Of a stretch of 64,000 nucleotides of DNA, positions 14,950-40,032 are shown in pieces. Source of the DNA: Rosettibacter firmus (GTDB lineage Bacteria; Bacteroidota; Ignavibacteria; Ignavibacteriales; Melioribacteraceae). The stretch's first letter is position 1; each line of letters begins with the position of its first letter. The stretch spans positions 1,178,001 through 1,242,000 of the forward strand of contig NZ_JAYKGJ010000001.1 of assembly GCF_036860695.1 (NCBI RefSeq), in the 5' to 3' direction. The position numbers were made by a program, and so were the translations under genes. A model generated the notes under the pieces. That model was not told the DNA's origin. It worked only from the letters and a program-made list of their open reading frames with translations, and made no database searches.

Positions 14950-16293
14950 ATGAAAGAAAAAATATTAGTAATAGATGATGATGAATCTATACGTCAGACT
15001 TTAACAAACTTTTTAAAGAGACTTAACTATTCCGTCATTACTGCTGAGAATGGTAATGCTGGTTTTGAAATGCTCAAAAAATATTCGCCCGATCTCATCA
15101 TTTCAGATATCAGAATGCCTGGACTTTCAGGTTTAGAACTTTTAAAGAAAATAAAAGAAGTTGATATAAACTCAAAAGTAATTTTAATTACAGCACACGA
15201 TGATATTCAAACAACAATTGAATCGATACAGAATGGAGCTTATGATTATTTTGAAAAACCACTCGATGTAGAAAAACTAAAAATTGTTGTACAACGTGCT
15301 CTCGAATCAAAATCTTTGAGCGAAAGGATAGAATCTTTTGTAACCGAAGAAGCAGAAGAGTATCAAATTGAAAAAAAGATTATTGGAAAATCACCATTAA
15401 TGAAAGAAGTTTATAAAAAAATTGGACACGTTTCTAATAATCGTGTTACAGTATTCATCGTAGGTGAAAGTGGAACTGGAAAAGAACTTGTTGCAAAAAC
15501 AATTCATTACAGTGGAATAACAAAAAATCATCCTTTCGTTGCAGTAAATTGTTCTGCTATTTCAGAAACATTACTTGAAAGCGAACTCTTTGGTCACGAA
15601 AAAGGAGCTTTTACTGGAGCCGATAGACTAAAAAAAGGCAAATTCGAACTTGCTGGCGAAGGAACTATTTTTCTTGATGAAATTTCTGAAATGTCGCCCG
15701 ACTTACAAGCCAAACTTCTCCGTGTTCTTCAAGAAAGAGAATTTGAACGAGTAGGTGGAGAATATAGCATTCCAATGAAGGCACGAATTATTACTGCTAC
15801 TAACAAAAATATCGAACTGCTTATTAATGAAGGTAAATTTAGAGAAGATTTATTTTTTAGATTAAACGTTGTTACAATAAAACTACCACCATTAAGAGAA
15901 AGAAAAGAAGACATCCCTTTGCTTGTTAATTACTTCTTAAATAGAATTAACAAAGAACTTCACAAAAATGTAACAAAAGTTCCAGACGAAGTAATGAAAA
16001 TGTTAATCGATTATGATTGGATTGGTAATGTTCGTGAACTTGAAAACGTATTAACACAGGCAGTAGTTCTTTCAACAGATAATGTACTCCATCCAGAAAA
16101 TATTTTATTAAAATATCCTGTTAATAAAAAAGAAGAACATTTACTATCTCTTCAGGAAGTTGAAAAAAAACATATTAAATTGGTACTTGAACATACAAAC
16201 TGGAATAAACCAGAAGCAGCAAAAATACTTGGTATTTCTCTTCCTACACTTTATGCTAAAATTGAACACTACAATCTTTCCAGAGAAAAATAA
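14950..16293 (+). CDS. Sigma-54-dependent response regulator (NtrC/ZraR class)
   Basis: A 447-residue activator: a receiver domain with phosphoacceptor Asp53 in ISDIRMPG, an AAA+ domain with Walker A GESGTGKE, the sigma-54 contact loop GAFTGA and Walker B IFLDEI, then a Fis-type helix-turn-helix ([21 protein letters not shown]). It opens promoter complexes for RpoN polymerase when phosphorylated by the adjacent kinase. The intergenic region directly after it carries a near-consensus -24/-12 element and inverted repeats suited to be its binding sites. Control of the downstream copper efflux operon is therefore likely. Confidence 0.95.
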
Positions 16294-16427: not shown

Positions 16428-16443
16428 TGGCATATTACTTGCA
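16428..16443 (+). promoter_or_regulatory. Sigma-54 (-24/-12) promoter of the copper efflux operon
   Basis: TGGCAT-N5-TTGCA at 16428-16443 matches the RpoN consensus TGGCAC-N5-TTGCW with one change and exact spacing. It follows a sigma-54 response regulator gene and precedes the efflux genes. The predicted RNA start is near 16453-16455. Confidence 0.85.
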
Positions 16444-16573: not shown

Positions 16574-17845
16574 ATGAAAAATGCTGTAATAACAATTCTA
16601 ATTTTAATAGCTTTTCATTCTCTTCATGCTCAAACCACAAATACATATCTCGATTCGCTTATATCAGAAGCATTATTAAATAATCCACAATTAAAAGCGG
16701 CAAGATTTAAGTATTTAAGTGAAGAGAAAAAAATCAAACAGGTAACTTCCTGGGAAGCTCCACAAATTGGAATAGAATTTTTCCAGATTCCAACTACTTC
16801 ATTCCCCAATCCACTAAAAAATAATATGGAAATGGATTATTACATTCAGCAAATGATTCCATTTCCTGGAAAATTAAAAGCGATGGGATTATCAGCTGCA
16901 AATAATGCAAAGATGAGAGAAGAACAATTTAATGCATTAAAGAACAAAATTATTAGAGATTTAAAAAGTACATTTTATGAACTTTATTTTGTTCAACGAA
17001 AAATTGAAATAAATAAAGAAAATCAAGAACTATTAAAACAATTTATCGAGATAGCAAAAAAACAATATGAAGTTGGAATGGGAAAACAGCCAGATATTAT
17101 ACGAGCACAAACTGAGCTTTCATCTTTAATAAATGATGAAATAAATCTTTACAAAGAAAAAAGAGATGTTGAAACAATGCTTAACACAATTTTAAATCGT
17201 CCCCCTTATCAACCATTTAATAAAATAGAAAAAATATATGAAGAAATTCCTGAATATAATTACCAGCAATTACTTTCACTTGCATTATCAACCAGACCCG
17301 AATTACAGGAAATGAATTATAACATCGAAATGTATAAAAGCGAATTAAAAGCATCCAAACTTGAATTCTATCCAGATATAATGGCAAGAGTAATGTATAA
17401 AAATATGATAGATACAAAAAATGATTTCTGGTCTGCAATGGTTGGTGTAAATATTCCCATAGCATTCTGGTCGAAAGATAAATATGGTGGTAAAGTTGAA
17501 GAAAATGAGTTGAATATTAAAACAGCAGAAGAACAATATAATTCAATGAAAAACATGATTTCATACGAAGTACAAAATGCAGTTGTAAAATTAGAAACAA
17601 ACAGAAATTTATATGAATTAAATAAAAACACAGTTGTACCACAGGCTGAACAAACACTTCAATCTACATTAGCAGCATATAAAACTGGGAAAACAGAATT
17701 TTTAATGTTAATAGATGCTTATAGAATGCTTTTTATGGCAAAATTAGATTTATATATGAGTGAAATGAATCTAATGCAGGCGGTATCACAGCTTGAACAG
17801 GCTGTTGGTTTACCACTAAATAAAATTAAAGAAAGTTTAGAATAG
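16574..17845 (+). CDS. cusC: TolC-family outer membrane efflux protein (CusC/CzcC type)
   Basis: A 423-residue outer membrane channel protein with a signal peptide (ending near AQTTNTYL) and two long alpha-helical repeats of the OEP family, as in CzcC and CusC. It would form the outer tunnel of a tripartite metal pump with the adaptor and RND pump encoded next. Sequences such as NPQLKAARFKYLSEEKK and a second helical hairpin (SELKASKLEFYPDIMAR) support this. An AAAGGT ribosome site lies before the ATG. The metal assignment comes from the neighbours. Confidence 0.92.
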   Translation: MKNAVITILILIAFHSLHAQTTNTYLDSLISEALLNNPQLKAARFKYLSEEKKIKQVTSWEAPQIGIEFFQIPTTSFPNPLKNNMEMDYYIQQMIPFPGKLKAMGLSAANNAKMREEQFNALKNKIIRDLKSTFYELYFVQRKIEINKENQELLKQFIEIAKKQYEVGMGKQPDIIRAQTELSSLINDEINLYKEKRDVETMLNTILNRPPYQPFNKIEKIYEEIPEYNYQQLLSLALSTRPELQEMNYNIEMYKSELKASKLEFYPDIMARVMYKNMIDTKNDFWSAMVGVNIPIAFWSKDKYGGKVEENELNIKTAEEQYNSMKNMISYEVQNAVVKLETNRNLYELNKNTVVPQAEQTLQSTLAAYKTGKTEFLMLIDAYRMLFMAKLDLYMSEMNLMQAVSQLEQAVGLPLNKIKESLE

Positions 17846-17865
17846 TAAATAAGGGAGAAACCTTG

Positions 17866-19566
17866 ATGAAAAAGAATATTATAACAGCAATTATTTTTCT
17901 CATTATAGGATTAGGTATTGGATGGTTTATTTTTAATTCCAGAACAACTACTGAAAAGAAAAGTGAAAGAAAAATACTTTACTACAGAAATCCAATGGAT
18001 CCGACTCAAACTTCACCTACTCCTAAGAAAGCACCAGATGGAATGGACTACGTTCCTGTCTATGCAGATGAAGAGACTAAAAGTGGAGAAAGAAAAATTG
18101 CTTATTACAAAGATCCAATGCATCCCTGGTATACATCGGATAAACCTGGTATTGCACCAGATTGCGGAATGGAATTAGTTCCAGTTTACGAAGGTGAAAG
18201 CGATGTCAAGGGAATTAAGATAGATCCTGTTGTTGTACAGAATATTGGCGTACGTGTTGAAACTGTTAAAAAACAAAAACTTCAAAAAATTATTAGAACC
18301 ACAGCTAAAATAGATTATGATGAAAGAAGAGTTACTGCTGTAACAACAAAAATAATGGGCTGGATAGAAAAACTTTATGTTGATTATACTGGCAAATATG
18401 TCTCTAAAGGTCAACCACTTTTTGAAATTTACAGTCCAGAACTTGTAAGTACACAAGAAGAATATCTTCAAGCAATTCGCTATTTAAAGAAAGTTTCTGC
18501 ACAAGGCTCTAAAGAAGTAATAGAAGGTGCACAGGAATTAGTCAACAGTGCAAAAAGAAGATTACTTTACTGGGACATTTCAGAAAAAGATATAAATGAA
18601 ATTGAAAAATATAATTCACCTAAAAAAACTCTAACAATTTACTCACCTGTTAATGGCATTGTTGTAGAAAAAATGGTTTATCAAGGTCAACAGGTGATGG
18701 CTGGAATGGATTTGTATAAAATTGCAGATTTATCAGTCGTATGGGCAATAGCCGATATTTATCAAATGGATTTACCCTGGATTAAATTAGGTCAAAATGT
18801 TGAACTTGAATTATCATATTTACCTGGCAAAAAATATCAGGGCAAAGTTACGTACATATATCCATTCTTGAATGATGAAACCAAAACTGTAAAGGTAAGA
18901 ACAGAAGTAAGAAATACATCTAACTATGATTTTAAACCAGGAATGTTTGCCACTGTGAAATTTGTTTCGCCTGTTTCAATTAATGCCATTGTTGTTCCTT
19001 CGCAAGCAATTATTAGATCTGGAGAAAGAAATATTGCTGTTATTTCATTAGGCGGTGGTTACTTTGAACCAAGAGAAGTTAAATTAGGAGTAGAATCCGA
19101 AGGCTTGGTTCAGGTGCTTGAAGGCATACGTGAAGGCGAAAATATTGTAGTTTCTTCTCAGTTCTTAATTGATTCAGAAAGTAATCTCAAAGCAGCAATT
19201 CAGCAGATGAGTGGACATGCAGGAATGGATATGAGCAAACCTATGAATGAATCTAAGAAATCAAAAGCAGAAGAAATGGATCATAGTAAAATGAATCATG
19301 AAGGAATGGATCATAACAAAATGAATCATGAACAAACGAAGAGTAAGAAAGAAAAAAGTGAAACTTCATCCATAATCAGAAAAGGTGTAATTGACCTTAA
19401 ATCAATTGATAAGAATAAAGATGGAAAAGTTTTTCAGGATCAAATGGATTGGAATGTAATTTCTGATAAACCAGGCAAATGCCCAATTTGTGGAATGACA
19501 TTAAAAGAGTCTACTCTGGAAGAAGCAAAAGCAAATTTGATAAAACATGGATTTAAAGTAAAATGA
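17866..19566 (+). CDS. cusB: CusB-type RND periplasmic adaptor with three metal-binding modules
   Basis: A 566-residue membrane fusion protein. After an N-terminal membrane anchor come two heavy-metal-binding domains (about 37-68 with YYRNPMDP, and 78-112 with YYKDPMHP and DCGMELVP), then barrel-sandwich/lipoyl and beta-barrel adaptor domains to about 440. A Met/His-rich linker (MDHSKMNHEGMDHNKMNHE) leads to a C-terminal third module with CPICGM. Such adaptors pick up Cu(I)/Ag(I) in the periplasm and pass it to the pump. The ATG at 17866 is preferred over the TTG one codon earlier because GGGAG lies 8 bases before it. The last 65 residues are nearly duplicated in the protein at 23276-23704. 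It is cotranscribed with the CusC and CusA genes. Confidence 0.93.
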   Translation: MKKNIITAIIFLIIGLGIGWFIFNSRTTTEKKSERKILYYRNPMDPTQTSPTPKKAPDGMDYVPVYADEETKSGERKIAYYKDPMHPWYTSDKPGIAPDCGMELVPVYEGESDVKGIKIDPVVVQNIGVRVETVKKQKLQKIIRTTAKIDYDERRVTAVTTKIMGWIEKLYVDYTGKYVSKGQPLFEIYSPELVSTQEEYLQAIRYLKKVSAQGSKEVIEGAQELVNSAKRRLLYWDISEKDINEIEKYNSPKKTLTIYSPVNGIVVEKMVYQGQQVMAGMDLYKIADLSVVWAIADIYQMDLPWIKLGQNVELELSYLPGKKYQGKVTYIYPFLNDETKTVKVRTEVRNTSNYDFKPGMFATVKFVSPVSINAIVVPSQAIIRSGERNIAVISLGGGYFEPREVKLGVESEGLVQVLEGIREGENIVVSSQFLIDSESNLKAAIQQMSGHAGMDMSKPMNESKKSKAEEMDHSKMNHEGMDHNKMNHEQTKSKKEKSETSSIIRKGVIDLKSIDKNKDGKVFQDQMDWNVISDKPGKCPICGMTLKESTLEEAKANLIKHGFKVK

Positions 19567-19595: not shown

Positions 19596-22500
19596 ATGTT
19601 AGAAAAAATTATAGAGTTTTCGATAAGAAATAAATTCCTTGTAATCCTTTCAACAATATTTTTGATTGGATATGGTATATATTCTTTATTGAATACACCA
19701 ATTGACGCAATACCAGATTTGAGTGATGTTCAGGTAATAATTTATACAGAATATCCAGGTCAATCACCAAGAATAGTAGAAGATCAGGTAACATATCCTT
19801 TAACAACTGCAATGGTTTCTGTCCCTGGTTCTAAAGTAGTAAGAGGTTATTCATTCTTTGGCTTTTCATTGGTATATATAATTTTTGAAGATGGTACAGA
19901 TATTTACTGGGCAAGAAGCAGAGTACTTGAGTATTTAAATTATGCACAGAAAAGACTTCCTAAAAATGTTGTTCCAACATTAGGTCCTGATGCAACTGGT
20001 GTTGGATGGGTTTATGAATATAAGCTTACATCAAAGACTAGATCTCTTCAAGAATTACGTTCAATTCAAGATTGGTATCTTAAATATGCATTAACTTCTG
20101 TTGAAGGTGTAGCCGAAGTTGCAAGCATTGGTGGTTATGTTAAACAATATCAGGTGACTGTTGACCCTGCAAAGTTACTGGCATATAACATTCCAATTGA
20201 TATGATAGAAATGGCAATAATGAAATCGAACAATGACGTTGGTGGCGAAGTAATTGAAATGGGCGAAATGGAATTTATGGTACGAGGTCTCGGTTACATA
20301 AAATCAATTGAAGATTTAGAAAATATTCCATTAATGGTTGACAAAAAAACAAACACTCCAGTTTATTTAAAAGATGTTGCTGATATAACACTTGGACCTT
20401 TAATGAGAAGAGGTCTGGCAGAATCAAACGGCGAAGGTGAGGTAGTCGGTGGTATAATTGTTATGAGATATGGAGATAATGCACTCAAAGTAATTGAAAA
20501 TGTGAAGAAAAAGATTGAGGAGTTAAAAGCAGGACTTCCACCTGATGTTAAAATAGAACCTGTATATGATCGTTCTGGATTAATTGAAAGAGCTATTGAT
20601 ACTTTAAAAGAAAAATTAATAGAAGAAATATTAATCGTTGCACTTGTATGCATAATATTTTTATTGCATGCAAGAAGTGCTTTTGTAGCAATCTTTACAC
20701 TACCTACAGCTATTTTAATGTCGTTTATAATAATGCGCTGGCAGGGAATAAATGCAAACATAATGTCACTGGGTGGAATTGCAATAGCCATTGGTGCTAT
20801 GGTGGATGCAGCAATAATTATGATTGAAAATGCTCACAAACACATTGAACACGAAGCCTTAAAACCACCAGAACAAAGAAGAAATAGATGGCAGTTAATA
20901 ATTGATGCATCAAAAGAAGTTGGTCCTTCATTATTTTATTCATTACTCGTAATTACTGTATCATTCATCCCGGTATTTACACTCGAAGCTCAAGAAGGAA
21001 GATTATTTAAACCACTTGCATTTACAAAAACTTATTCAATGGCAGCTGCCGCAATTTTATCTATAACCATTGTTCCAATATTAATGGGTTACTGGATACG
21101 TGGAAAAATAATGCCAGAAGAAAAAAATCCCATCAACAGATTTTTAATTAAAATTTATCACCCGGTTGTAGATTTTGTTATAAAATATAACAAATTCGTT
21201 ATAGCTGCAGTTATAATAATACTTGCATTAACAATAATTCCATTTAAAAAAATTGGTTCTGAATTTATGCCTCCACTCTACGAAGGCGACTTACTTTATA
21301 TGCCTACTACTATGCCAGGTATGTCAATAACCAAAGCGAGAGAATTACTTCAACAAACAGATAAAATAATTAAACAATTTCCAGAAGTACATCACGTATT
21401 TGGAAAAATTGGAAGAGCCGAAACTGCAACCGATCCTGCTGGTTTGGATATGGTTGAAACTACAATAATGTTAAAACCCGAAAGTGAATGGCGACCTGGA
21501 ATGACTCCTAAAAAACTGATTGATGAAATGGATCGCGCAATTCAATTTCCTGGGGTTACAAATGCATGGACAATGCCAATTAAGACAAGAGTTGACATGC
21601 TAAGTACTGGAATAAAAACTCCAGTTGGAATTAAAATCTCAGGACCCAATTTAGATACCTTGCAAGAAATTGGAAGAGAAGTAGAAGCTGTTATGCGCAC
21701 TGTGCCCGGAACCTTGAGTGCTTTTGCTGAGAGAGCTGTGGGTGGAAATTATCTTGATATTGAAATCAATAGAAAAGAAGCTGCACGATATGGATTAACT
21801 ATTGATGATGTTCAAAAAGTAATTCAAACTGCAATGGGTGGAATGGCTATAACAAATACTATTGAAGGTTTAGAAAGGTATACAGTAAATCTTCGTTACA
21901 GTAGAGAATTAAGAGATAATATCGAAGCATTAAAAAGAGTTCTTATACCAACTCCAACAGGTGAACAGGTTCCGTTTGGACATCTTGCAACTTTTATAAC
22001 TCGTAAAGCACCGATGGTAATTAGAAGCGAAGATACACGTCCAAATGCCTGGGTCTATGTTGATATAAAAGATATTGATATTGGTACTTATGTACAAAAT
22101 GCTCAGAAGATTGTGTCAGAAAAAATTAAACTGCCTGCTGGTTATAATATTACCTGGAGCGGTGAATATGAATATATGTTAAGAGCTCAACAGAAATTGA
22201 TGATTGTTATACCTATGACTTTATTTATCATTTTCGTAATTATCTATCTAAATACACGCTCACTCACAAAAGTAGCAATTGTTTTCCTTGCTGTTCCTTT
22301 CTCACTGGTTGGAACATTCTGGTTGCTTTATTTACTGGGTTACAATTTAAGTATTGCCGTCTGGGTTGGTATAATAGCTCTTGCAGGTTTAGACGCAGAA
22401 ACTGGAGTAGTAATGTTACTTTATCTTGACATTGCATTGAAAGAATGGAAAGAAAAAGGATTACTTACGGGATTAAAAGGATTAAAAGAAGCCATTCATC

Positions 22501-22748
22501 ATGGTGCTGTAAAACGTGTTAGACCAAAAATTATGACTGCTTCAGTTATAATTGCAGGACTTATTCCAATTATGTGGAGTCATGGAACAGGGGCAGATGT
22601 AATGAAACGTATCGCAGCTCCTATGCTTGGTGGTGTTGTTACTTCTGTATTAATGGAATTGGCTGTTTATCCGGTGATTTATTACCTGTGGAGATCATGG
22701 GAAATGAAGAGAGAAGCCAAGAAAAAAGGAATTGCATTAGAATCTTAA
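19596..22748 (+). CDS. cusA: CusA/CzcA heavy-metal efflux RND pump
   Basis: A 1050-residue proton-driven RND transporter with 12 predicted membrane segments and two large periplasmic loops. Proton-relay residues are visible: Asp in AMVDAAIIMIENAH, Glu in AGLDAETGVVMLLY and Lys in VRPKIMTAS. Motifs GKIGRAETATDPAG and RVDMLSTGIKTPVGIKISG match the CusA side of the family more than CzcA. Methionines in RVDML and in APMVIRSED align with two of the three methionines of the CusA Cu/Ag site; the third is uncertain. The start follows a CTGGAGAG ribosome site. Monovalent Cu/Ag export is the best guess. Confidence 0.95.
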   Translation: MLEKIIEFSIRNKFLVILSTIFLIGYGIYSLLNTPIDAIPDLSDVQVIIYTEYPGQSPRIVEDQVTYPLTTAMVSVPGSKVVRGYSFFGFSLVYIIFEDGTDIYWARSRVLEYLNYAQKRLPKNVVPTLGPDATGVGWVYEYKLTSKTRSLQELRSIQDWYLKYALTSVEGVAEVASIGGYVKQYQVTVDPAKLLAYNIPIDMIEMAIMKSNNDVGGEVIEMGEMEFMVRGLGYIKSIEDLENIPLMVDKKTNTPVYLKDVADITLGPLMRRGLAESNGEGEVVGGIIVMRYGDNALKVIENVKKKIEELKAGLPPDVKIEPVYDRSGLIERAIDTLKEKLIEEILIVALVCIIFLLHARSAFVAIFTLPTAILMSFIIMRWQGINANIMSLGGIAIAIGAMVDAAIIMIENAHKHIEHEALKPPEQRRNRWQLIIDASKEVGPSLFYSLLVITVSFIPVFTLEAQEGRLFKPLAFTKTYSMAAAAILSITIVPILMGYWIRGKIMPEEKNPINRFLIKIYHPVVDFVIKYNKFVIAAVIIILALTIIPFKKIGSEFMPPLYEGDLLYMPTTMPGMSITKARELLQQTDKIIKQFPEVHHVFGKIGRAETATDPAGLDMVETTIMLKPESEWRPGMTPKKLIDEMDRAIQFPGVTNAWTMPIKTRVDMLSTGIKTPVGIKISGPNLDTLQEIGREVEAVMRTVPGTLSAFAERAVGGNYLDIEINRKEAARYGLTIDDVQKVIQTAMGGMAITNTIEGLERYTVNLRYSRELRDNIEALKRVLIPTPTGEQVPFGHLATFITRKAPMVIRSEDTRPNAWVYVDIKDIDIGTYVQNAQKIVSEKIKLPAGYNITWSGEYEYMLRAQQKLMIVIPMTLFIIFVIIYLNTRSLTKVAIVFLAVPFSLVGTFWLLYLLGYNLSIAVWVGIIALAGLDAETGVVMLLYLDIALKEWKEKGLLTGLKGLKEAIHHGAVKRVRPKIMTASVIIAGLIPIMWSHGTGADVMKRIAAPMLGGVVTSVLMELAVYPVIYYLWRSWEMKREAKKKGIALES

Positions 22749-22872: not shown

Positions 22873-23250
22873 ATGAAATCTAAACTATTATTCTTATTAG
22901 CAATTCCAGTTTTATTGGGTAATATTTATGCACAACCTAAAGCAGTTTTTAAACCTATGAGTTACGATTTCGGTAATATTGTGCAGGATTCTGTAGTCGA
23001 AAAAATATTTGTTATTACAAACGAAGGCAACGATACACTTAAAATCCACGATATCAAAGTATCCTGCGGATGTACTGCAGCAGTTATTGGAAAAAAAGAA
23101 CTTGCTCCTTCCATCTCAACCGAAATTAAAGTTACATTTGATTCAAAAGGGAGATTGGGTAAGCAAAATAAAATTATATCTGTTTATACAAACGATCCTG
23201 ATAATAGTGTTATAAGATTAACTTTAAAAGGGAATGTTCTAAAAAAATAA
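22873..23250 (+). CDS. Exported DUF1573 domain protein
   Basis: A 125-residue protein with a signal peptide (about residues 1-20, ending YAQ) and one DUF1573/ASH-like immunoglobulin-type domain: FKPMSYDFGNIVQDS, FVITNEGNDTLKI, and a SCGCTAAV motif. DUF1573 proteins are common in Bacteroidota relatives as periplasmic or surface proteins; their role is unknown. The Cys-Gly-Cys pair could be a metal or disulfide site, which would suit this copper operon, but the motif is general in the family. A CTGGAGAA ribosome site precedes the ATG. Confidence 0.87.
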   Translation: MKSKLLFLLAIPVLLGNIYAQPKAVFKPMSYDFGNIVQDSVVEKIFVITNEGNDTLKIHDIKVSCGCTAAVIGKKELAPSISTEIKVTFDSKGRLGKQNKIISVYTNDPDNSVIRLTLKGNVLKK

Positions 23251-23275: not shown

Positions 23276-23704
23276 ATGAAAGCAATAAAAATTTTCACAA
23301 ATATGTTCTTGGTTGTAATGTTTCTAACTAGTGTGGTACTGGCTCAAGAAAAAAAAGATTCAACTAAAGAAGACCACAAAATGATGAAACATGATATAAT
23401 GAGAGATTCATCTAAGCAACATAAAATGCACGATATGAAGATGATGAAAGATTCAACTCATCAAAAGATGAAGAACAAAAAAGAAATGATGGACAAAAAG
23501 AAATCACCTCTTATAAGAGAAGGAGAAATTGACTTAGAAGCTATTGATGAAAACAAGGATGGTAAAGTTTTTCAGGATCAAATGGATTTTAATGTTATCT
23601 CTGATAAACCTGGCGAATGCCCGGTATGCGGTATGAAATTAAAAGAGGTTACTCTTGAAAAAGCAAAAGAAAATTTGCTCGAACATGGATTTAAGGTTAA
23701 GTAA
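23276..23704 (+). CDS. Exported Met/His-rich heavy-metal-binding protein
   Basis: A 142-residue exported protein: a signal peptide (ending near VLAQE), a middle part dense in Met, His, Lys and Asp (KMMKHD, HKMHDMKMMKD, HQKMKNKKEMM), and a C-terminal module with an EF-hand-like DENKDGK loop and CPVCGM. The last 65 residues match the C-terminus of the CusB adaptor at 49 positions. It probably binds Cu(I)/Ag(I) in the periplasm and may play the part of CusF, the metallochaperone that is otherwise absent here. A GGAG ribosome site precedes the start, and a hairpin terminator follows the stop. Confidence 0.85.
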   Translation: MKAIKIFTNMFLVVMFLTSVVLAQEKKDSTKEDHKMMKHDIMRDSSKQHKMHDMKMMKDSTHQKMKNKKEMMDKKKSPLIREGEIDLEAIDENKDGKVFQDQMDFNVISDKPGECPVCGMKLKEVTLEKAKENLLEHGFKVK

Positions 23705-23869: not shown

Positions 23870-24589
23870 ATGAAATGTAATCGATGCGGAGCTGAGAATA
23901 ATGATGCAAATAAATTTTGTACGAATTGCGGGAATGAATTAATTCATGAAAATAACCCACAGGAAATTATTTGTGAATCATGTGGTGCAAAAAACAAACC
24001 AGAAAATAATTATTGTATTTTGTGTGGAGAGCGTCTTAGATCAACTGTGAGTTCAAATGTTACTAAACTAAATTTACAAAGGCAATATCATGATAATAGA
24101 AAGAAGAATAAAAAGAGAAGTAATAACCTATCTACTGCTCAAAACAAAAATTATCCACAAGCAAAAAAGATTGAACTAAGACCTTTTTTGATTACTGCAG
24201 TTGTTATAATTGTTTCTTATATCACAGTTACATTAATCAACAACCGGGAAAATACAAATACTATAGTCCCTACCACAGAAATTAAAAGTACAAATCCTGC
24301 TGTCGAAGCAATTGTTTATGAAATTGCATCAAAGTTTGTTTGCTCGTGTGGTTCATGTAATGAAGAATCTCTTGAAAAATGTACATGTCCACGTGCAGTT
24401 GAAGAGCGACAGTTTATTCGAGATTATGTTGAAAAGAATGGGCAACAGAAAAATATTGTAGTTGCTTTAGCAAATAGATACGGTTATCTGAAATCGGAAT
24501 ATGCTAAAGATTATAAAGTAGATGCTTCTAAAATATGGCAAAGTGATGCTTCAAATTCTTTTTCAAATTCAAAAGGTATTATCAAATAA
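23870..24589 (+). CDS. Double zinc-ribbon membrane protein with CcmH-like C-terminal domain
   Basis: A 239-residue protein with two N-terminal zinc ribbons (CNRCGAENNDANKFCTNCG and CESCGAKNKPENNYCILCG), a basic linker, one membrane segment (about 103-121) and an extracytoplasmic domain. That domain contains CSCGSCNEESLEKCTC, followed by helices ending in VALANRYGYLKSEY. The Cys-bearing loop followed by a helical hairpin recalls the CcmH haem-lyase/redox domain of cytochrome c maturation, but the match is by eye and moderate. It is the first gene of an operon with a DUF2318 protein and an ABC exporter pair. Function is unknown; thiol or metal delivery is plausible. Confidence 0.7.
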   Translation: MKCNRCGAENNDANKFCTNCGNELIHENNPQEIICESCGAKNKPENNYCILCGERLRSTVSSNVTKLNLQRQYHDNRKKNKKRSNNLSTAQNKNYPQAKKIELRPFLITAVVIIVSYITVTLINNRENTNTIVPTTEIKSTNPAVEAIVYEIASKFVCSCGSCNEESLEKCTCPRAVEERQFIRDYVEKNGQQKNIVVALANRYGYLKSEYAKDYKVDASKIWQSDASNSFSNSKGIIK

Positions 24590-24607
24590 ATTAATGATGG
24601 GGTAAAA

Positions 24608-25288
24608 ATGTCAAAAATAAATTTCTGTCCACATTGCGGTATAAAAATTCAAGAGGAAGGAAATTTTTGTCCCGAATGCGGTTCAAAGTTATATGAGCAA
24701 TCACATAAAACTAACAGAGTCACCAATAATAAGAAAGAACGTGTATTAAAGAATACTTCTGCTAAAAATAAAAATATTTATTGGTGGGCTGCAGGGACTG
24801 CTGTAATATTATTTGTAATTATTTACTACTTATCACAGCCAACTAAAGAGTATAAAATTATAAAAGAACAACAGCAAGTTGTAAGTTCTGTTTCATATCC
24901 TTTATCGCGTTATGATGCAAGTTATTCGATTGCTTTTTCAAAAGGTGGCAAAATTATCCTTCCTCTTGATGAAGTTAAAGAAAAGAAGATGGTGAAATTT
25001 GATTATTTCATCCAAAATACATCTATACCAATTCTTGCATATTTATCTGAAGAAGGAAAAATAATTACCGCAATCAGTATGTGCGAGCCATGCGACTCAA
25101 AAGATTTCCATATTCGAGGTAGCAATCTCATCTGCAATTCGTGTGGAACTACATGGAATCTGAACAACCTTGAAGCTATAAGCGGAGCGTGTGGTAAATA
25201 TCCACCAGATCCAATACCAAGTAAGGTTGTGGGTAATGAAATTCAAATTGATGAATCTCTTGTCTTGAACTGGAAAAGACGAGTATAA
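24608..25288 (+). CDS. Zinc-ribbon membrane protein with DUF2318 domain
   Basis: A 226-residue protein: an N-terminal zinc ribbon (CPHCGIKI / CPECGSKL), a membrane segment at about 58-76, and a DUF2318 domain with CEPCDSKDFHIRGSNLICNSCGTTWN and the closing SGACGKYPPDPIP. DUF2318 proteins accompany FTR1/P19-type iron systems and FtsX-type ABC transporters, for example the Campylobacter p19 locus. Their Cys-rich fold is thought to hold metal or an Fe-S centre. Here the permease gene begins 3 bases downstream. The zinc ribbon fused on the cytosolic side is shared with the preceding gene. The domain call is good; the transported substrate is unknown. Confidence 0.83.
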   Translation: MSKINFCPHCGIKIQEEGNFCPECGSKLYEQSHKTNRVTNNKKERVLKNTSAKNKNIYWWAAGTAVILFVIIYYLSQPTKEYKIIKEQQQVVSSVSYPLSRYDASYSIAFSKGGKIILPLDEVKEKKMVKFDYFIQNTSIPILAYLSEEGKIITAISMCEPCDSKDFHIRGSNLICNSCGTTWNLNNLEAISGACGKYPPDPIPSKVVGNEIQIDESLVLNWKRRV

Positions 25289-25291
25289 AAA

Positions 25292-26452
25292 ATGAAACTA
25301 TATACTATATCGATTCAAAGCTTAAGAAGAAGAAAATCAAGAACAGCATTTCTTTTGTTTGGACTCGTTCTCTCAATAGCATTAGTTATAATGTTGATAA
25401 CATTAAGTGAAAGTATTAATGCAAGTGTTTCGCAGAAATTGGATGAATTTGGAGCTAATATTATTGTTACACCTAAAAGTGAACAATTGCTAATCAATTA
25501 TGGCGGAATGATGATTGGAGATATATCATATAATAATTCGCAATTAAAAGAAACAGATATAGCCCGCATCCGCTCGATTAAAAACAGCAAAAATATTTCA
25601 ACCATTTCACCAAAGTTGCTGGAAATAGCAGATGTAAATGGTAAGAAAACTATTATCGCAGGTATTATATTCGAGAACGAACTTCGATTGAAAAAATGGT
25701 GGCATATAAAAGGAAATATACCCGAATCTAAAAATCAAATATTAATAGGAAATAATGTTTCAACACATAGACAAATTAATATTAACGATACCATAAAAAT
25801 TAAAAATGAGATTTTTGTAGTAAGTGGAATTCTTGATAACACCGGTTCGCAAGATGATGATTTTATCTTTATGAATCTTTCTTCTGCACAAAAATTATTT
25901 AATAAACCCGGAACTATTTCACTCATTGAAATTTCTGCTTTGTGTTACGACTGTCCAATTGAAGAAATTGTAGCTCAGACTTCTAAAGCAATCCCTGCAG
26001 CAAAAGTTACACCAATTAAGCAAACCATAGAAGCAAGAATGTCAGCTGTTCATAGTTTTGAACATTTTTCAATTGGGATATCGATGATAATTCTTGTTAT
26101 TAGTTTCTTAATTGTTTTTATAAATGTAAATGCTTCTGTAAACGAAAGAACAAAGGAAATCGGAATATTTAAATCGGTTGGCTTTAGACAAATACATATC
26201 TTAAAAATAATTCTATTTGAGATTTTTATAATAAGTCTAATATCTGGATTGGCAGGATATTTCATTGGTACAAATTCAGCAAAATTTCTACTACCACATT
26301 TAAGTATGTTTGCTGCCAATGAATTAATTATTAGACCAATATTACTTTGGGAAACAGTTTTGCTCTCACTTATTGTAAGTCTATTAGCCTGTATTTATCC
26401 AGCACTTAAAGCAGCAAAACTCGACCCAACTGTTGCATTCAGGTACATCTAA
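25292..26452 (+). CDS. FtsX/MacB-type ABC transporter permease
   Basis: A 386-residue permease with the four-segment FtsX/MacB layout: one N-terminal membrane helix, a large MacB periplasmic domain (about 45-235) and three C-terminal helices, ending in the typical YPALKAAKLDPTVAFRY motif. MacB-type systems do not move substrates through the membrane but work mechanically on periplasmic partners or lipids. Two cysteines in the periplasmic domain (CYDC) may contact the DUF2318 partner. The ATPase gene follows after 16 bases. Iron or copper handling is inferred from the DUF2318 neighbour. Confidence 0.9.
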   Translation: MKLYTISIQSLRRRKSRTAFLLFGLVLSIALVIMLITLSESINASVSQKLDEFGANIIVTPKSEQLLINYGGMMIGDISYNNSQLKETDIARIRSIKNSKNISTISPKLLEIADVNGKKTIIAGIIFENELRLKKWWHIKGNIPESKNQILIGNNVSTHRQININDTIKIKNEIFVVSGILDNTGSQDDDFIFMNLSSAQKLFNKPGTISLIEISALCYDCPIEEIVAQTSKAIPAAKVTPIKQTIEARMSAVHSFEHFSIGISMIILVISFLIVFINVNASVNERTKEIGIFKSVGFRQIHILKIILFEIFIISLISGLAGYFIGTNSAKFLLPHLSMFAANELIIRPILLWETVLLSLIVSLLACIYPALKAAKLDPTVAFRYI

Positions 26453-26468
26453 AATTTAAGGACGACAA

Positions 26469-27182
26469 ATGAGTTTAGTTGAAATAAATCAAATATCAAA
26501 AGTGTACGAAACTGGTGGAGTAAAAATTACAGCAGTTAATAATGTTTCATTTACTATATCGAACAATGAATTAATTACCATTATGGGAGAATCTGGCTCT
26601 GGTAAAACTACACTACTTACAATTATGGGAGGTTTATGCAAACCGACATCGGGAAAAGTGATTGTAGATGGTCTGGATATTTATTCTCTTAACCAGAATA
26701 GTCTGGCAGATTTTAGAAAGGAATATCTGGGCTTTGTCTTTCAAACATTTCAACTTATTCCGTATTTAACAGTTGAAGAAAATGTAATGCTACCACTTGC
26801 AATAAGTGATCTGAGAAAAAAGCAGAAAAAAGAAATTGTTTATTCAATACTTGAAAAAGTTCATATTAAAGATAAATCGAAAAGATTGATAAATGAACTT
26901 AGTGGCGGTGAACAACAGCGAGTTGCAATAGCAAGAGCACTGGTAAATGATCCTTTGATTATTCTTGCAGATGAGCCAACCGGTAATCTTGATTCTAAGA
27001 CAAGTAAAGAGATCATCAATATTTTTCTTTCTCTTGTCTCAGAAGGTAAAACTGTTGTAATGGTAACACATAATAAAGAATATACAAAATATGCAACAAG
27101 AGTTATTGAACTATCAGATGGTAAAATAATTAAAGAAAATTATATCTCACTTTCTGAGGTTACTCACCCTGTTAGTGTTTGA
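26469..27182 (+). CDS. ABC transporter ATP-binding protein (LolD/MacB class)
   Basis: A 237-residue ATPase with Walker [11 protein letters not shown]-loop [13 protein letters not shown], signature LSGGEQQR, Walker [14 protein letters not shown] and switch His in VTHN. The TGNLDS extension is typical of the MacB/LolD/FtsE group that partners FtsX-like permeases such as the one encoded directly upstream. It drives that permease from the cytosolic face. The operon context with DUF2318 suggests a metal-related role. Confidence 0.95.
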
Positions 27183-27206: not shown

Positions 27207-27932
27207 ATGAATTCGAAATTTTTGATAAGGATGGTAATGATAATTTTTCCTGTGTTAATGCTTGATGTGATAAATGCACAAAATGGATGGTCCATTGCAA
27301 TTAATCTACAACTTGTAGGTGGTAGTTATACTTTTGACAAAAATAATTTCAATAAAAATAAAATTATCTATTATTATAGTGGCCTGGGAAATTGGGCTAT
27401 TAGTTTATTGGCTCCATTAAAGACTTATGAAATTACACCACAGCGTGCTGATTCCCTTATATTCCCTTTTATTAAAGAAACATATACTGGCAATATTATT
27501 AACGACATTTTTTTCCCGCCAGCATTTAATATAAACACTTATGTTAAACTTCCTATGATACCATATTCTAAAAAGAAAGGTGAATATAATTATGGTTTCT
27601 CGGTAACTCTCAGGAAATTAAATAAAGTTTTTTTTGGATTTGCTAATCTGGGGTATATCGTTATATCTAATCCTTTACATAACAATCATCGAAATCCGTT
27701 GAGTTATGGTTTTGGAATAGGGAAATATTTTTATGAAAAGTTACTAACATCTTGGGTATTTTATCACAGTTATTCAGCAATCGTTGAAGATTACAAACCA
27801 CCCACCCTCATTTCTATTGGTGTTAACTACAAAATTTATAGAGATGTAATCATTTATCTTATTGACACTTTAGAAGTAAGTAAAAGTTATTCTGGAAATT
27901 CGTTTTCAGGAGGATTGAGATGGAATTTATAA
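27207..27932 (+). CDS. Putative outer-membrane beta-barrel protein, paralogue of 28486-29340
   Basis: A 241-residue exported protein: a signal peptide (ending about INAQ), an NGWSIAINLQLVGGSYTF opening, alternating hydrophobic strands rich in Tyr and Gly, and an aromatic-containing C-terminus (FSGGLRWNL). This is typical of an outer-membrane barrel or barrel-like protein of unknown function. Its beginning and end clearly resemble those of the protein encoded at 28486-29340, so the two are paralogues. It follows the ABC ATPase gene by 24 bases. An ATG 24 bases inside the frame is an alternative start. Confidence 0.7.
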   Translation: MNSKFLIRMVMIIFPVLMLDVINAQNGWSIAINLQLVGGSYTFDKNNFNKNKIIYYYSGLGNWAISLLAPLKTYEITPQRADSLIFPFIKETYTGNIINDIFFPPAFNINTYVKLPMIPYSKKKGEYNYGFSVTLRKLNKVFFGFANLGYIVISNPLHNNHRNPLSYGFGIGKYFYEKLLTSWVFYHSYSAIVEDYKPPTLISIGVNYKIYRDVIIYLIDTLEVSKSYSGNSFSGGLRWNL

Positions 27933-27965: not shown

Positions 27966-28481
27966 ATGAAAAAACATAATTTAAATATCACTAACAAAGT
28001 AATGCAAATGTGCTTTGTAATAACATTATATCTTATAGCATATACAAGCTCATTTTATGCCCAGCATCAACATGGAAACATGAGTGGCAATCAACAAATT
28101 CAAATGCAGCACAACATGAATACAATGATGGAAAACATGCAAACAATGATGAATCAAATGAATCAGCTTGCTGAAAAGAGCAACAAAATGCTTCTTGTTA
28201 TGAAGTCAAGCATTAATCAAAATCAGAATGATATGCATTCATTGAATATGCATGCAAAATCCATGACAACTTTAATGCAAAATATGAGTGAAATGTCTGG
28301 CAGTATGAAAAACATAATTGAAGACATGAACAAAGTTATTCATGATTCTGAAATGATGAAGAATGATGAAATAAAAACACACATGGAAGATATGATGAAA
28401 ACTATGAAAAACATGATTAATGAATACGAAGACATGCTTAATAAGATGGAAAAGATGCAATCAAAAGAACAAAGTAGATAA
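27966..28481 (+). CDS. Exported Met-rich coiled-coil protein
   Basis: A 171-residue exported protein with a signal peptide (about residues 1-33, ending FYAQ), then a His/Met-containing start (HQHGNMSG) and a long helical region with exceptional Met and Asn/Gln content (repeated MM, NMNTMMENMQTMMNQM). The pattern is that of a coiled coil with methionines at many heptad positions. Met-rich periplasmic proteins often bind Cu(I) or Ag(I); that role is inferred from composition and from the nearby copper locus. No family is recognised. A CAGGGAG ribosome site precedes the ATG. It lies between two paralogous outer-membrane proteins. Confidence 0.75.
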   Translation: MKKHNLNITNKVMQMCFVITLYLIAYTSSFYAQHQHGNMSGNQQIQMQHNMNTMMENMQTMMNQMNQLAEKSNKMLLVMKSSINQNQNDMHSLNMHAKSMTTLMQNMSEMSGSMKNIIEDMNKVIHDSEMMKNDEIKTHMEDMMKTMKNMINEYEDMLNKMEKMQSKEQSR

Positions 28482-28485
28482 AGTC

Positions 28486-29340
28486 ATGAGACATAAAAAT
28501 AAACTATTGCCCTTTGCCCTCTATATTGTTATAACACTCACCTCTTCAAGCCTCAAGAACTACGCCCAGGAAGGCTGGTCTTTAAAAGCCAGCCTTCAAT
28601 TTTCAGGAGGAAATTATTCTTACAACAATTCAAGTAAAATATTTTATTTTTACGGCGAAGCCAGTTATCAAAAAAATAACTGGAGCTTCAATGTTTCTGT
28701 ACCTGTTGTTGCTCAGAATGCAGGTGGTGTTGGTCAGGTAGGAGGCATGATGCTTCCAAATGGAAATAATGATGAAGATAATCATTATAACATGATGACT
28801 GGTAATGAAAATAATAGTAACTTTATGAACAATCATTCAATGTCCTCATTCAACCATTTTGGTCTTGGAGATATTTCTCTCTATGGTTCATATAATATTT
28901 TTGAAGATAATGCTTCACTGTTTTCGCTGAGTTTAAATTCATTTTTTAAAATTCCTACTGCAAGTTACAGCCTTGGTTTAGGTACAGGAAAATTTGATTT
29001 GGGAATTTCAGCAACAATTAGAAAAATGCTGGATAGCTACATTGGTTTTCTAGACCTTGGTTATATTGAAATTGGAGATCCACCTAATATTAAATATAAT
29101 AATCCGCTAAGTATTGGACTAGGTTTAGGAAAGTTTTTTGATGAAGGTAATTATTCTCTTTTGCTTTATTATCAGGCATATACAAAAATAATTGATGGTT
29201 ATCCTGCCCCTCAATTATTATCACTTGGATTTAATTACAAAATTAATTCCAGCCTCACCCTTTCTTTGATTGGAGCCGCAGGATTAAGTAAAATAACTTC
29301 TAATTTTTCTTTTTCTAGTGGTCTGGAATGGAACCTTTAA
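28486..29340 (+). CDS. Putative outer-membrane beta-barrel protein
   Basis: A 284-residue exported protein. The frame is open further upstream, but the ATG at 28486 gives a clean signal peptide (basic start, hydrophobic core, AQ cleavage) and starts 4 bases after the previous stop, so it is preferred over 28420. The mature part begins EGWSLKASLQFSGGNYSY, is rich in Gly, Tyr and Asn, carries a Met/Asn-rich loop (about residues 85-120) and ends FSSGLEWNL. It resembles the 27207-27932 product at both ends. It is probably an outer-membrane protein linked with the Met-rich partner encoded just before it; function is unknown. Confidence 0.72.
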   Translation: MRHKNKLLPFALYIVITLTSSSLKNYAQEGWSLKASLQFSGGNYSYNNSSKIFYFYGEASYQKNNWSFNVSVPVVAQNAGGVGQVGGMMLPNGNNDEDNHYNMMTGNENNSNFMNNHSMSSFNHFGLGDISLYGSYNIFEDNASLFSLSLNSFFKIPTASYSLGLGTGKFDLGISATIRKMLDSYIGFLDLGYIEIGDPPNIKYNNPLSIGLGLGKFFDEGNYSLLLYYQAYTKIIDGYPAPQLLSLGFNYKINSSLTLSLIGAAGLSKITSNFSFSSGLEWNL

Positions 29341-29361
29341 TAAAAAATGAAAGGAATTATT

Positions 29362-30441
29362 ATGCAATTATTACCAGATTGGGCACCAAATATTCATCCA
29401 ATGATAGTTCACTTTCCACTTGTCCTTTTGATCTTTGCAGTGTTATTTGACTTTACAGGTTTGGTATTAACAAAATTCGAATGGATTAAAAAGTCTGCAT
29501 TATTATTATACTTTTTAGGAACAATAGCAGCAGTGATTGCTTTTATTACTGGCAATGGAGCATCGGATAGTATAAATATTCCGTCTAATGCTTTTTCTGC
29601 TGTGAATGAACATGCTGATTGGGCAGAAATTACTTTATGGTTTTTCATCATTTATACAATAGTTCGTTTAATCTTTGCATTTGGATTTAAATATATACCA
29701 TTTGCAAAAATTATTATAATTCCTGTTGTACTTAGTGGATTTATTGGCATCTACTTTTTATACAATACTGGTGATCATGGTGCAAAGTTAGTTTATGGAT
29801 ATGGATTGGGAACCGGTAATATTTTAAAATCGGAAAAAACATTACAAACTGCAGAAAGTAAATTTGTTTCTGATTCAACTTTCTCTGTAAGAAAAGATGG
29901 CTCATGGAGATTAATCGCAGATGAAAATGTTATTAAAGTTCTATCTCAAAAATTTAAGTGGATCGAAGGTTCTCTACAAGAACTCAATCCAATGTACGAA
30001 TCCTCCGAATCTATATTAATGTTTCATCTTGGCGAAGAAAATCCAATTATAGCTGGATTTATTTATGATAATAAAATCAAGAGTGTTCAAACTACAGTAA
30101 AAATTAATCTCGATAATTTTAATGGTGAACTGGAATTGATTCATAATTTTGTAGATAAAAATAATTACGACTTACTCGGCTTAAAAAAGGATGAAATTTA
30201 TCTTGCAAGAAAAACTAATGGAGAAACAAAAATCTTTGAGAAAAAAAGCTTGCAAAGTAAACAAATTGATGGATTGCTTGAAATAAAAGTTGTAAGTGAA
30301 GGAACTCATTTCAGAGGCTATATAAATAATAAATTGTATATACACGGACATGGAAGTGTTCCTCAGCCAGGTAGTGCAGGAATTAAATTCTCTGGCACAG
30401 GCATCATCAACATTAAATCAATTAATGTTGAATCTCTATAA
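29362..30441 (+). CDS. DUF2231 membrane protein with C-terminal LamG-like domain
   Basis: A protein of about 359 residues. The first 140 residues are a DUF2231 domain with four membrane segments and the typical start PNIHPMIVHFPLVLL plus an HADWAE motif. The remainder is soluble and beta-rich, ending with IKFSGTGIINIKSINVES, and looks like a concanavalin/LamG-type domain (GTHFRGYINNKLYIHGHG). The ATG at 29362 has AAAGGA at a good distance, while the in-frame ATG at 29347 has none, so the later start is preferred. DUF2231 proteins often accompany haem or copper proteins, and conserved His residues could bind haem; this is inference. Confidence 0.8.
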   Translation: MQLLPDWAPNIHPMIVHFPLVLLIFAVLFDFTGLVLTKFEWIKKSALLLYFLGTIAAVIAFITGNGASDSINIPSNAFSAVNEHADWAEITLWFFIIYTIVRLIFAFGFKYIPFAKIIIIPVVLSGFIGIYFLYNTGDHGAKLVYGYGLGTGNILKSEKTLQTAESKFVSDSTFSVRKDGSWRLIADENVIKVLSQKFKWIEGSLQELNPMYESSESILMFHLGEENPIIAGFIYDNKIKSVQTTVKINLDNFNGELELIHNFVDKNNYDLLGLKKDEIYLARKTNGETKIFEKKSLQSKQIDGLLEIKVVSEGTHFRGYINNKLYIHGHGSVPQPGSAGIKFSGTGIINIKSINVESL

Positions 30442-31082: not shown

Positions 31083-32561
31083 CTAATATCTTCTTTTATA
31101 ATTAATTAAATTTCCATTTGAATCATAAATACAAAGTTCAAGTGGCATTTGACCTGGTAATGAATGAGTTGCACAACCAAAACATGGATCGTATGCACGG
31201 AATGCCATTTCAATCATATTTAAAACAGAATCGGTAATTTCTGTTCCTTTTTTAATTAATCCTTTTGCTGCTCTTTTTATCGACATTGAAATTGCAGCGT
31301 GATTATTGGTTGTTCCTACAATTAAATTTGCTTTCTGAATAATTCCTCTTTCATCAGTAATATAATGATGTGTTAATGTACCACGTGGTGCTTCAACAAT
31401 ACCAATTCCTTCGGATGGAATTTCAGTAGGTATTTTTCTGATTTCTTTAGATGTAATTTCTGGATCATTAATTAATTGATTTGCTCTTTCGGCAGCATAC
31501 ATAAGTTCAATAATCCTTGCCCAGTGTGTAGCCAGTGTATGATGAACTGGGATTTTACCTGTATGATCTCCCGTAAATGTTTCATAAAATTTTTCATACT
31601 CTTCCTGTGCTAATGGAGTTGCCATTCCATCAGAAACATTTAATCTTGATAGTGGAGTTGCAATGTAAACTCCACTTTCTTTACCATCTACAAATCCTTT
31701 CCAGCCTATTTTTTTGAGATATGGAAATTTAAGATAACTCCAACTTTCTATATGCTCTGCAACATGATTTAGATATTCATTGGGTTCATATTTACAAAAT
31801 TCATTACCATCAGGATCAACAACTCGAACTTTTCCATCATAAAAATTGACTTTATTATTTTCATCAACCAAACCCATGTAGTAAGTTTTTTGAGTATAAT
31901 TATCAGATAGAATCAGATCAATATATTTTGAATTTTTTAAGACATAATCATCGAAGACCTTAAAAGTAAATTTTGCAAACTCAATAAAGTATTCTAAATC
32001 TTTAGCAAACATTTCTCGTTCTTCTTCGCTCAGACCTCGAGTTATGCCACCTGGAATAGCAGTAACCTGATGAATTTTTTTGCCTCCCAGTGTTTGAATA
32101 ATATTTTGTGCAATAGAACGAAGTTTAATTACTTTTTTTCCTGCTTCAATTCCAACTTTATTAATAACACCTAAAATATTTCTTTCGGATTTTTCAGCCT
32201 CTGGACCAACTACAAAATCTGGTCCTCCTAAAGCATAGAAATGAACAGTATGATCTGCACAAAAGAATACAGAATAAAGTAGCTCTCTTAATTTCTTAGC
32301 AGCTGATGGAATTTCAACTTTATAAACTGCATCGCATGCTTTAGCAGATGCCATATGATGAGCTTCGGGACATACACCACAAATCCTCGTTGTAATTCTT
32401 GGCATTTCTTCAACTGGTCTACCCTGAACAAATTTTTCGAATCCTCTTAACTCGGGAACTATGAAATAACAATTTTCAACTTCACCATCATCATTAAGAA
32501 AAATATCAATTCTTCCGTGACCTTCGAGTCGTGTAATCGGATCAATTTTTATATGTTTCAT
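31083..32561 (-). CDS. mvhA: [NiFe] hydrogenase large subunit, group 3c (Mvh) type
   Basis: A 492-residue catalytic subunit carrying the Ni-Fe site. The L1 motif RICGVCPEAHH (Cys61, Cys64) and L2 motif DPCFGCATH (Cys460, Cys463, His466) are complete. The 26 residues after His466 form the C-terminal extension normally cut off by a maturation endopeptidase, and a gene for such a protease heads this operon. The protein is soluble and lacks a Tat signal. With MvhG, MvhD and HdrABC in the same operon it should take electrons from H2 into an electron-bifurcating complex. It is the last gene of the operon. Confidence 0.96.
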   Translation of the reverse strand: MKHIKIDPITRLEGHGRIDIFLNDDGEVENCYFIVPELRGFEKFVQGRPVEEMPRITTRICGVCPEAHHMASAKACDAVYKVEIPSAAKKLRELLYSVFFCADHTVHFYALGGPDFVVGPEAEKSERNILGVINKVGIEAGKKVIKLRSIAQNIIQTLGGKKIHQVTAIPGGITRGLSEEEREMFAKDLEYFIEFAKFTFKVFDDYVLKNSKYIDLILSDNYTQKTYYMGLVDENNKVNFYDGKVRVVDPDGNEFCKYEPNEYLNHVAEHIESWSYLKFPYLKKIGWKGFVDGKESGVYIATPLSRLNVSDGMATPLAQEEYEKFYETFTGDHTGKIPVHHTLATHWARIIELMYAAERANQLINDPEITSKEIRKIPTEIPSEGIGIVEAPRGTLTHHYITDERGIIQKANLIVGTTNNHAAISMSIKRAAKGLIKKGTEITDSVLNMIEMAFRAYDPCFGCATHSLPGQMPLELCIYDSNGNLINYKRRY

Positions 32562-32575
32562 ATTTGTCTCTCTAA

Positions 32576-33559: not shown

Positions 33560-33569
33560 CGTTATTCCC

Positions 33570-33983: not shown

Positions 33984-34001
33984 ATTTTTTAGCTCATTGT
34001 T

Positions 34002-37397: not shown

Positions 37398-37412
37398 GCT
37401 TCATTCACCTTT

Positions 37413-38300: not shown

Positions 38301-38318
38301 TTTTTCCTCTTACTTATG

Positions 38319-38975: not shown

Positions 38976-38976
38976 T

Positions 38977-39489: not shown

Positions 39490-39492
39490 GTG

Positions 39493-40016: not shown

Positions 40017-40032
40017 TGCAACCGATATGCCA
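40017..40032 (-). promoter_or_regulatory. Sigma-54 (-24/-12) promoter of the hydrogenase-Hdr operon
   Basis: On the minus strand TGGCAT-N5-TTGCA (40032 down to 40017) matches the RpoN consensus with exact spacing. Both core hexamers are identical to those of the copper operon promoter. The predicted RNA start is near 40006, about 13 bases before the protease ATG at 39993. A sigma-54 activator gene lies immediately upstream. Confidence 0.85.

Follow-up and report, generated by a model that had tools for sequence, protein, structure and literature searches.

An envelope module joining DUF2318, a predicted CcmH fold and an FtsX-type ABC pair lies next to cusCBA in Rosettibacter firmus

Introduction

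What does a DUF2318 protein do beside an FtsX-type ABC transporter when FTR1 and P19 are missing? In a 64,000-nucleotide stretch of the Rosettibacter firmus genome (the window; contig NZ_JAYKGJ010000001.1, positions 1,178,001 to 1,242,000), four adjacent genes encode a zinc-ribbon/CcmH-like protein (here ZR1), a zinc-ribbon DUF2318 protein, an FtsX-type permease and an ABC ATPase. An original prediction, made from the DNA alone, had noted that the last three recall the P19 iron locus of Campylobacter without FTR1 and P19, and had suggested a distinct transport or redox system. We assign a rough probability of 0.45 to the reading that these genes form a copper(I)/silver(I)-stress envelope module, co-transcribed with CusCBA, that relays thiols or electrons, or else Cu(I), and has a core in common with FetA-FetBCD.

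Results

Exact open reading frames and Pfam matches bear out the four genes at 23870-27182 as first described, and an AlphaFold model with structural search supports the CcmH likeness of the first.

23870..24589, + strand: ZR1, with a double zinc ribbon (cytosol), a transmembrane (TM) segment at ~104-127 and an extracytoplasmic predicted CcmH-fold domain with C158, C160, C163, C171 and C173
24608..25288, + strand: DUF2318 protein, with a zinc ribbon (cytosol), TM at ~55-75 and an extracytoplasmic DUF2318/FtrD-like domain of predicted Rieske-like fold with C159, C162, C176, C179 and C195
25292..26452, + strand: FtsX/MacB-type permease with a periplasmic CxxCP (C218, C221)
26469..27182, + strand: ABC ATPase of the LolD/MacB type

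The intergenic gaps are 18, 3 and 16 bp. ZR1 matches the double zinc ribbon and CcmH families, the latter at 23.1 bits, slightly short of the Pfam cut-off of 25 bits, and at 25.2 bits in a whole-genome search. The DUF2318 protein matches a zinc ribbon and PF10080 (DUF2318/FtrD-like, 82 bits), the permease matches FtsX and MacB_PCD, and the ATPase matches ABC_tran. Positive charge ahead of the TM helix in both ZR1 and the DUF2318 protein agrees with the proposed layout, in which cytosolic ribbons are joined through one span to Cys-rich domains outside.

The AlphaFold model of the DUF2318 domain has a block-mean predicted local distance difference test (pLDDT) score of 93-98. Its Foldseek and VIA matches are Rieske proteins (best VIA Z 10.0, 2.4 Å over 105 residues), and each of the top 50 VIA rows is a Rieske-type protein or includes a Rieske-type domain. 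DUF2318 is thus predicted, with high confidence, to adopt a Rieske fold in which Cys replaces both His ligands, an assignment that is new here. A profile alignment to a Rieske protein encoded by R. firmus itself matches C159 to the first Rieske Cys, C176 to the second and C179 to the second ligand His; C162 falls one residue past the first ligand His. The Rieske CxH ... CxxH ligand motifs are not present in the DUF2318 protein and CxxC ... CxxC stands in their place; each Cys of the pattern C159-x2-C162-x13-C176-x2-C179-x15-C195 is retained in at least 51 of 53 relatives. Zinc-ribbon DUF2318 genes without FtsX or ATPase also occur at L068, L069, L070 and L124:14218-14871, convergent to canonical ccm operons and in some cases with an HMA protein.

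The modelled outer domain of ZR1 aligns to Pseudomonas aeruginosa CcmH (2hl7) with a Z of 9.2, 2.4 Å over 72 residues, and to 2kw0 with a Z of 7.8; the next unrelated row scores 4.2. This domain, likewise new here, is predicted to be a three-helix CcmH fold with five invariant Cys, and its motif CxCxxC-x7-CxC, including the CxxC pair C160/C163, is invariant in 39/39 relatives. Most ZR1 relatives carry a tandem pair of CcmH-like domains, and the window protein carries one. Among 197 genomes sampled from the class Ignavibacteria, CcmH-like domains occur in 15; of the 16 matches, 12 belong to module ZR1s, and the remaining four likewise lie in metal-resistance-type clusters.

The permease/ATPase pair combines an FtsX C-terminal domain, a MacB-like periplasmic core and a LolD-type ATPase. 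MacB is the closest solved permease structure, and the closest ATPases are of the Lol/MacB type. The periplasmic CxxCP is found in 36 of 38 relatives, the two exceptions each being one member of the permease pair at Bacillota loci that encode two, and aligned MacB has no Cys at this position. As read from these alignments, the motif is new here. Since DUF2318, the ZR1 outer domain and the permease CxxCP are all conserved, each predicted extracytoplasmic part of the module carries a conserved Cys site. The single permease gene indicates that the permease is probably a homodimer.

The N-terminal zinc ribbon plus TM helix is a shared and optional unit. Within R. firmus it is shared because a further zinc ribbon-TM protein with TPR repeats, encoded downstream of an HU-like gene (L072:8482-9198, contig C5), carries the same N-terminus. 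The unit is also found on a SurA-like protein in Thermodesulfobacteriota, where an extra protein directly upstream of DUF2318 (L133-L136, L139 and L140) mostly comprises a zinc ribbon, a TM helix, a SurA-like domain and a Cys-rich C-terminus. The ribbon Cys of DUF2318 proteins are retained in 46-47 of 53 relatives, and some relatives have no ribbon.

A distinct transport or redox system is supported, but the original prediction missed the copper-efflux context set by cusCBA upstream. The following features surround the module.

12830..14947, + strand: membrane sensor histidine kinase with HAMP, PAS, HisKA and HATPase domains; its position makes it the putative sensor for the operon
14950..16293, + strand: NtrC-type sigma-54-dependent response regulator
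16428..16443, + strand: perfect sigma-54 (-24/-12) promoter match TGGCATATTACTTGCA, 130 bp upstream of cusC
16574..17845, + strand: CusC-like outer-membrane efflux protein
17863..19566, + strand: CusB-like adaptor with heavy-metal-binding domains
19596..22748, + strand: CusA-like RND pump retaining the three Met of the E. coli CusA Cu/Ag site (M569, M619, M668)
22873..23250, + strand: DUF1573 secreted protein
23276..23704, + strand: Met/His-rich heavy-metal-binding-domain (HMBD) protein
27207..27932, + strand: secreted/outer-membrane-type protein, with relatives near the module in L034 and L085
27966..28481, + strand: Met-rich (19% Met) secreted protein that recurs with the module
28420..29340, + strand: outer-membrane-type protein (Phenol_MetA_deg) that recurs with the module
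29347..30441, + strand: DUF2231 membrane protein, final gene of the probable operon, which recurs with the module

All same-strand gaps from cusC to the DUF2231 gene are at most 165 bp, and cusCBA and the module likely form one operon behind the two-component system and the sigma-54 site. The 165-bp gap between the HMBD gene and ZR1 contains a weak hairpin, so an additional promoter inside the operon is possible there. Exact sigma-54 promoter matches number two in the window versus 0.17 expected by chance; sigma-54 control of the cusC-DUF2231 unit is possible but putative, as a perfect site alone is no proof of it. The window CusA scores 1253 bits to E. coli CusA versus 563 bits to the CzcA-like ZneA, and alignment to the former places Met at all three Cu/Ag-site positions, which we take to be M573, M623 and M672 in the E. 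coli numbering. Because cusCBA and copper-type metal-binding genes immediately precede the module, here and in most relatives, its assignment to copper/silver efflux rather than iron is well supported by gene content.

Scanning named genomes turned up 62 loci, which range from Stygiobacter electus (81% identity) and Melioribacteraceae across other Ignavibacteria, Kryptonium, Calditrichota and Chlorobiota to Thermodesulfobacteriota and Bacillota. From these we took the 42 loci with both FtsX and ATPase and no less than 2.5 kb to either side, and counted neighbours as loci, not as independent events. ZR1 is nearby in 32 of the 42 and CusA in 28; CcmF adjoins 16, a TPR protein is present in 10 and a YHS protein in 8. 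Full ZR1-DUF2318-FtsX-ATPase modules recur at 13 loci of the class sample. Co-occurrence of the four genes, a check that had been proposed with the original prediction, is therefore borne out, and given this recurrence and the frequency of ZR1 near FtsX and ATPase the arrangement is not chance. The predicted absence of partners also holds: in the whole R. firmus genome there is no match to an FTR1-type permease (FetM, PF03239) and none to P19/FetP (PF10634), and P19 is found in 0 of the 197 class genomes. Neither FTR1/P19 elsewhere in the genome nor unrelated contexts in relatives, the two outcomes named beforehand as contrary, was encountered.

On Pelobacter propionicus plasmid pPRO1, DUF2318-FtsX-ATPase is flanked by a CsoR-family repressor, a P-type ATPase and an HMA protein, and by a two-component system and CusCBA; to judge by these genes, the core there sits inside a CsoR/CopA/CusCBA island. 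This plasmid was reached via a permease search, and a tblastn search of plasmids with DUF2318 gave no match. Module neighbours in Thermodesulfobacteriota include DsbA-like, TlpA-like and DsbD_TM/CcdA-like proteins. Cysteine-synthase-like and Cys/Met-metabolism pyridoxal phosphate enzyme genes follow the ATPase in Kryptonium (L109) and at L041:5403-7560, hinting from gene content at a link to a low-molecular-weight thiol. ZR1 and DUF2318 are separated at L089, L097, L106, L118 and L124 by a gene of the TonB-receptor type whose product has a carboxypeptidase-regulatory-like domain.

The module-linked CcmF lies downstream (Melioribacteraceae and others) or upstream (Calditrichota), and in a tree these proteins fall into two separate clades that retain the Trp of the WWD region and the conserved His. 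In 5/5 genomes tested the linked CcmF is additional to a canonical one. A link between copper and cytochrome c assembly has been described, and these loci suggest that copper efflux and cytochrome c maturation are genetically linked. Elsewhere in its genome R. firmus carries ccmC, ccmE and ccmF, and a whole-genome search found no CcmH match besides ZR1. Its canonical ccmC-ccmE-ccmF operon (L077:7002-10655) has no adjoining ccmA or ccmB, and a CcmB match is present in the genome. FtsX/ATPase as a substitute for CcmAB was considered and is ruled out because CcmB is nearly universal in the class (192 of 197 genomes, R. firmus included).

Further along the window, a single run of genes at 31083-39993 (- strand) encodes hydrogenase large and small subunits, a small MvhD-like protein, and HdrA-like, HdrB-/HdrC-like, rubrerythrin-like and hydrogenase-protease-like proteins. 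The HdrA-like protein, very large at 1131 aa, seems to contain an inserted NADPH-oxidoreductase-like part. The window's sole other perfect sigma-54 site lies just upstream of this run (40017-40032, - strand), which could possibly encode an electron-bifurcating hydrogenase under sigma-54 control.

Discussion

Sequence and structure prediction show co-inheritance of a MacB/LolCDE-type ABC machine with an anchored, Rieske-fold DUF2318 domain and an anchored CcmH-fold domain, both folds being predictions. We infer that the four proteins may work as one periplasmic assembly, with the Cys as candidate Cu, Fe-S or Zn sites. In the copper/silver-stress reading, the transporter would move no small solute across the membrane; ATP would be used, as by mechanotransmission ABC proteins, to open and close the assembly, whose Cys sites would pass either electrons and thiols or, alternatively, Cu(I) among themselves. 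Envelope Cys sites, those that handle copper as well as the CxxCH thiols in apocytochromes of the c type, would be kept reduced and copper-free, and CusCBA would receive the Cu(I). At roughly 40% of the related loci the module has gained a dedicated CcmF paralogue, at several together with a TPR protein, and this would give a CcmF-CcmH-CcmI-like heme-attachment unit beside the copper pump, and the same DUF2318-permease-ATPase core would serve iron uptake, with FTR1/P19, in Fet. An ATP-driven mechanotransmission complex with a Cys relay appears to us the most economical mechanism.

Several observations weigh against this reading. FetABCD, with the same core, is required for C. jejuni growth under iron limitation (PMC10783030). 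The authors of that study state that the biochemical function of FetA is not known and the substrate of the transporter is unclear. DUF2318 genes have been described as lying almost always in FTR1/P19-type clusters (PMC6083913), a generalisation that does not hold for Ignavibacteria, Calditrichota and related groups. CusA is missing from the vicinity of the core in most relatives from Thermodesulfobacteriota and Bacillota, which may mean that copper is not its context everywhere, and the window locus itself has no adjacent CcmF or TPR gene. The DUF2318-Rieske link is weak from sequence without structure, the profile alignment having a probability of 12%; when the zinc-ribbon DUF2318 alignment was run against solved structures by sequence only, just ribbon-type and other weak matches came up.

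We weighed five other explanations and take them here from the most to the least probable. It is unlikely, if well worth considering, that the module is a specialised cytochrome c maturation system resembling the NrfEFG heme lyase, with ZR1 as the CcmH/NrfF part, the TPR protein as the NrfG/CcmI part and the CcmF paralogue as the NrfE part; DUF2318-FtsX-ATPase would then supply reductant or move heme or apocytochrome, and the metal genes would be mere neighbours. The predicted CcmH fold of ZR1, a weak NrfF match and the repeated linkage of a CcmF with its Trp and His retained, a second CcmF in each genome tested, in two positions and two clades, all fit such a system. However, the window and more than half of the loci have no linked CcmF, copper-type clusters contain ZR1-type proteins where neither CcmF nor DUF2318 is present, the prevalence of CcmB leaves FtsX/ATPase no role as a CcmAB replacement, and a search for a dedicated CxxCH substrate gene beside the module found none that recurs. 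Export, in which FtsX-ATPase would expel or extract a periplasmic or membrane substrate (a peptide, metallophore or lipoprotein), perhaps via the CusC outer-membrane channel, is distinctly unlikely: it draws on the MacB and Lol/MacB-type likeness and on the outer-membrane factor gene in the same operon, but CusB is the one MacA-type adaptor seen there, and the conserved permease Cys and the linked DUF2318 and CcmH-like proteins are left without a role.

Copper import or cuproenzyme metallation, by analogy with NosDFY, would account for the TonB-receptor-type genes between ZR1 and DUF2318 in several relatives and for the polyferredoxin and YtkA-like protein that precede the core in Desulfosporosinus, yet is improbable given neighbourhoods dominated by efflux genes (CusCBA, P-type ATPase) and no cuproenzyme gene identified beside the module. 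Iron uptake without FTR1/P19, the closest comparison drawn by the original prediction, has in its favour a core as in FetA-FetBCD with equal DUF2318 Cys spacing (PMC6083913), but the genome has neither FTR1 nor P19, the class sample has no P19 and the operon is of copper type here and in relatives, which makes it very improbable. The most improbable of the five is transmembrane signalling through the cytosolic ribbons. The common zinc ribbon-TM design of two operon proteins and their charge pattern are consistent with it, but ribbons are missing from several DUF2318 relatives and found on unrelated partners, and a two-component system already lies upstream. Being optional and shared with other proteins, the ribbons are weak evidence for signalling; a distinct metal/thiol system, as the original prediction also proposed, does fit.

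The same core in copper-efflux operons, together with the predicted Rieske fold and the permease CxxC, turns the role of FetA/FetBCD into testable chemistry of cofactor and thiols. It also suggests a single machine of general use in metal and thiol handling, not one specific to iron. It is conceivable, though doubtful, that DUF2318 founds an all-Cys Rieske-fold class that, with a CxxC-bearing mechanotransmission ABC, makes an ATP-driven mover of reducing power or Cu(I) on the membrane's outer face, partnered variously for iron uptake (Fet), copper efflux (the R. firmus locus) and copper-protected heme attachment (the CcmF loci).

Comparison with known systems

The likeness to the Campylobacter P19 locus stands: like FetMP-FetABCDEF of Campylobacter jejuni and FetMP-Fls, the module has DUF2318 with CxxC-x13-CxxC-x14/15-C (x15 in the window protein, as in FetA), an ABC permease of FtsX type and an ATPase (PMC6083913, PMC10783030, PMC7285068). 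Unlike Fet, it has no FTR1, P19 or FetE/F thioredoxins, includes an extra CcmH-like protein and lies in a copper-efflux operon. The window protein is not the single-protein FetA form of 8 TM helices, DUF2318 and YHS, but has one TM helix, a zinc ribbon and no YHS; a separate YHS gene follows the ATPase in some relatives only, whereas FetA itself carries the domain. Nor does the window have the FetB, FetC and FetD plan of two permeases and one ATPase, since it encodes one of each, and two permeases are found only in the Bacillota relatives L138 and L145. With FTR1, P19 and the 8-TM FetA form all looked for and not found, the R. firmus locus is not a Fet system, though its core is common to FetA-FetBCD.

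The inferred copper (CsoR) regulon of gut Firmicutes likewise places DUF2318 proteins among copper-regulated genes, some as HMA-DsbD_2-DUF2318 fusions; these are fused membrane proteins, and no FtsX/ATPase is described with them (PMC4938975). With the mechanotransmission transporters MacB, LolCDE and FtsEX the module has in common an FtsX plus MacB_PCD permease and a LolD-type ATPase; unlike them, it has the conserved periplasmic CxxCP and Cys-rich anchored accessory proteins, and no MacA or lipoprotein-release context. CcmH/NrfF of cytochrome c maturation System I resembles ZR1 in predicted fold, CxxC pair and the CcmF that adjoins some related loci, but has one Cys pair against the five Cys of ZR1, which in turn differs in its zinc-ribbon N-terminus, its often tandem domains and its association with metal clusters. 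Rieske proteins, finally, resemble DUF2318 in predicted fold and cluster-loop register, with CxxC-G where Rieske proteins have CxxH-G; DUF2318 differs in having Cys for both His ligands and a fifth invariant Cys at what is a putative cofactor site.

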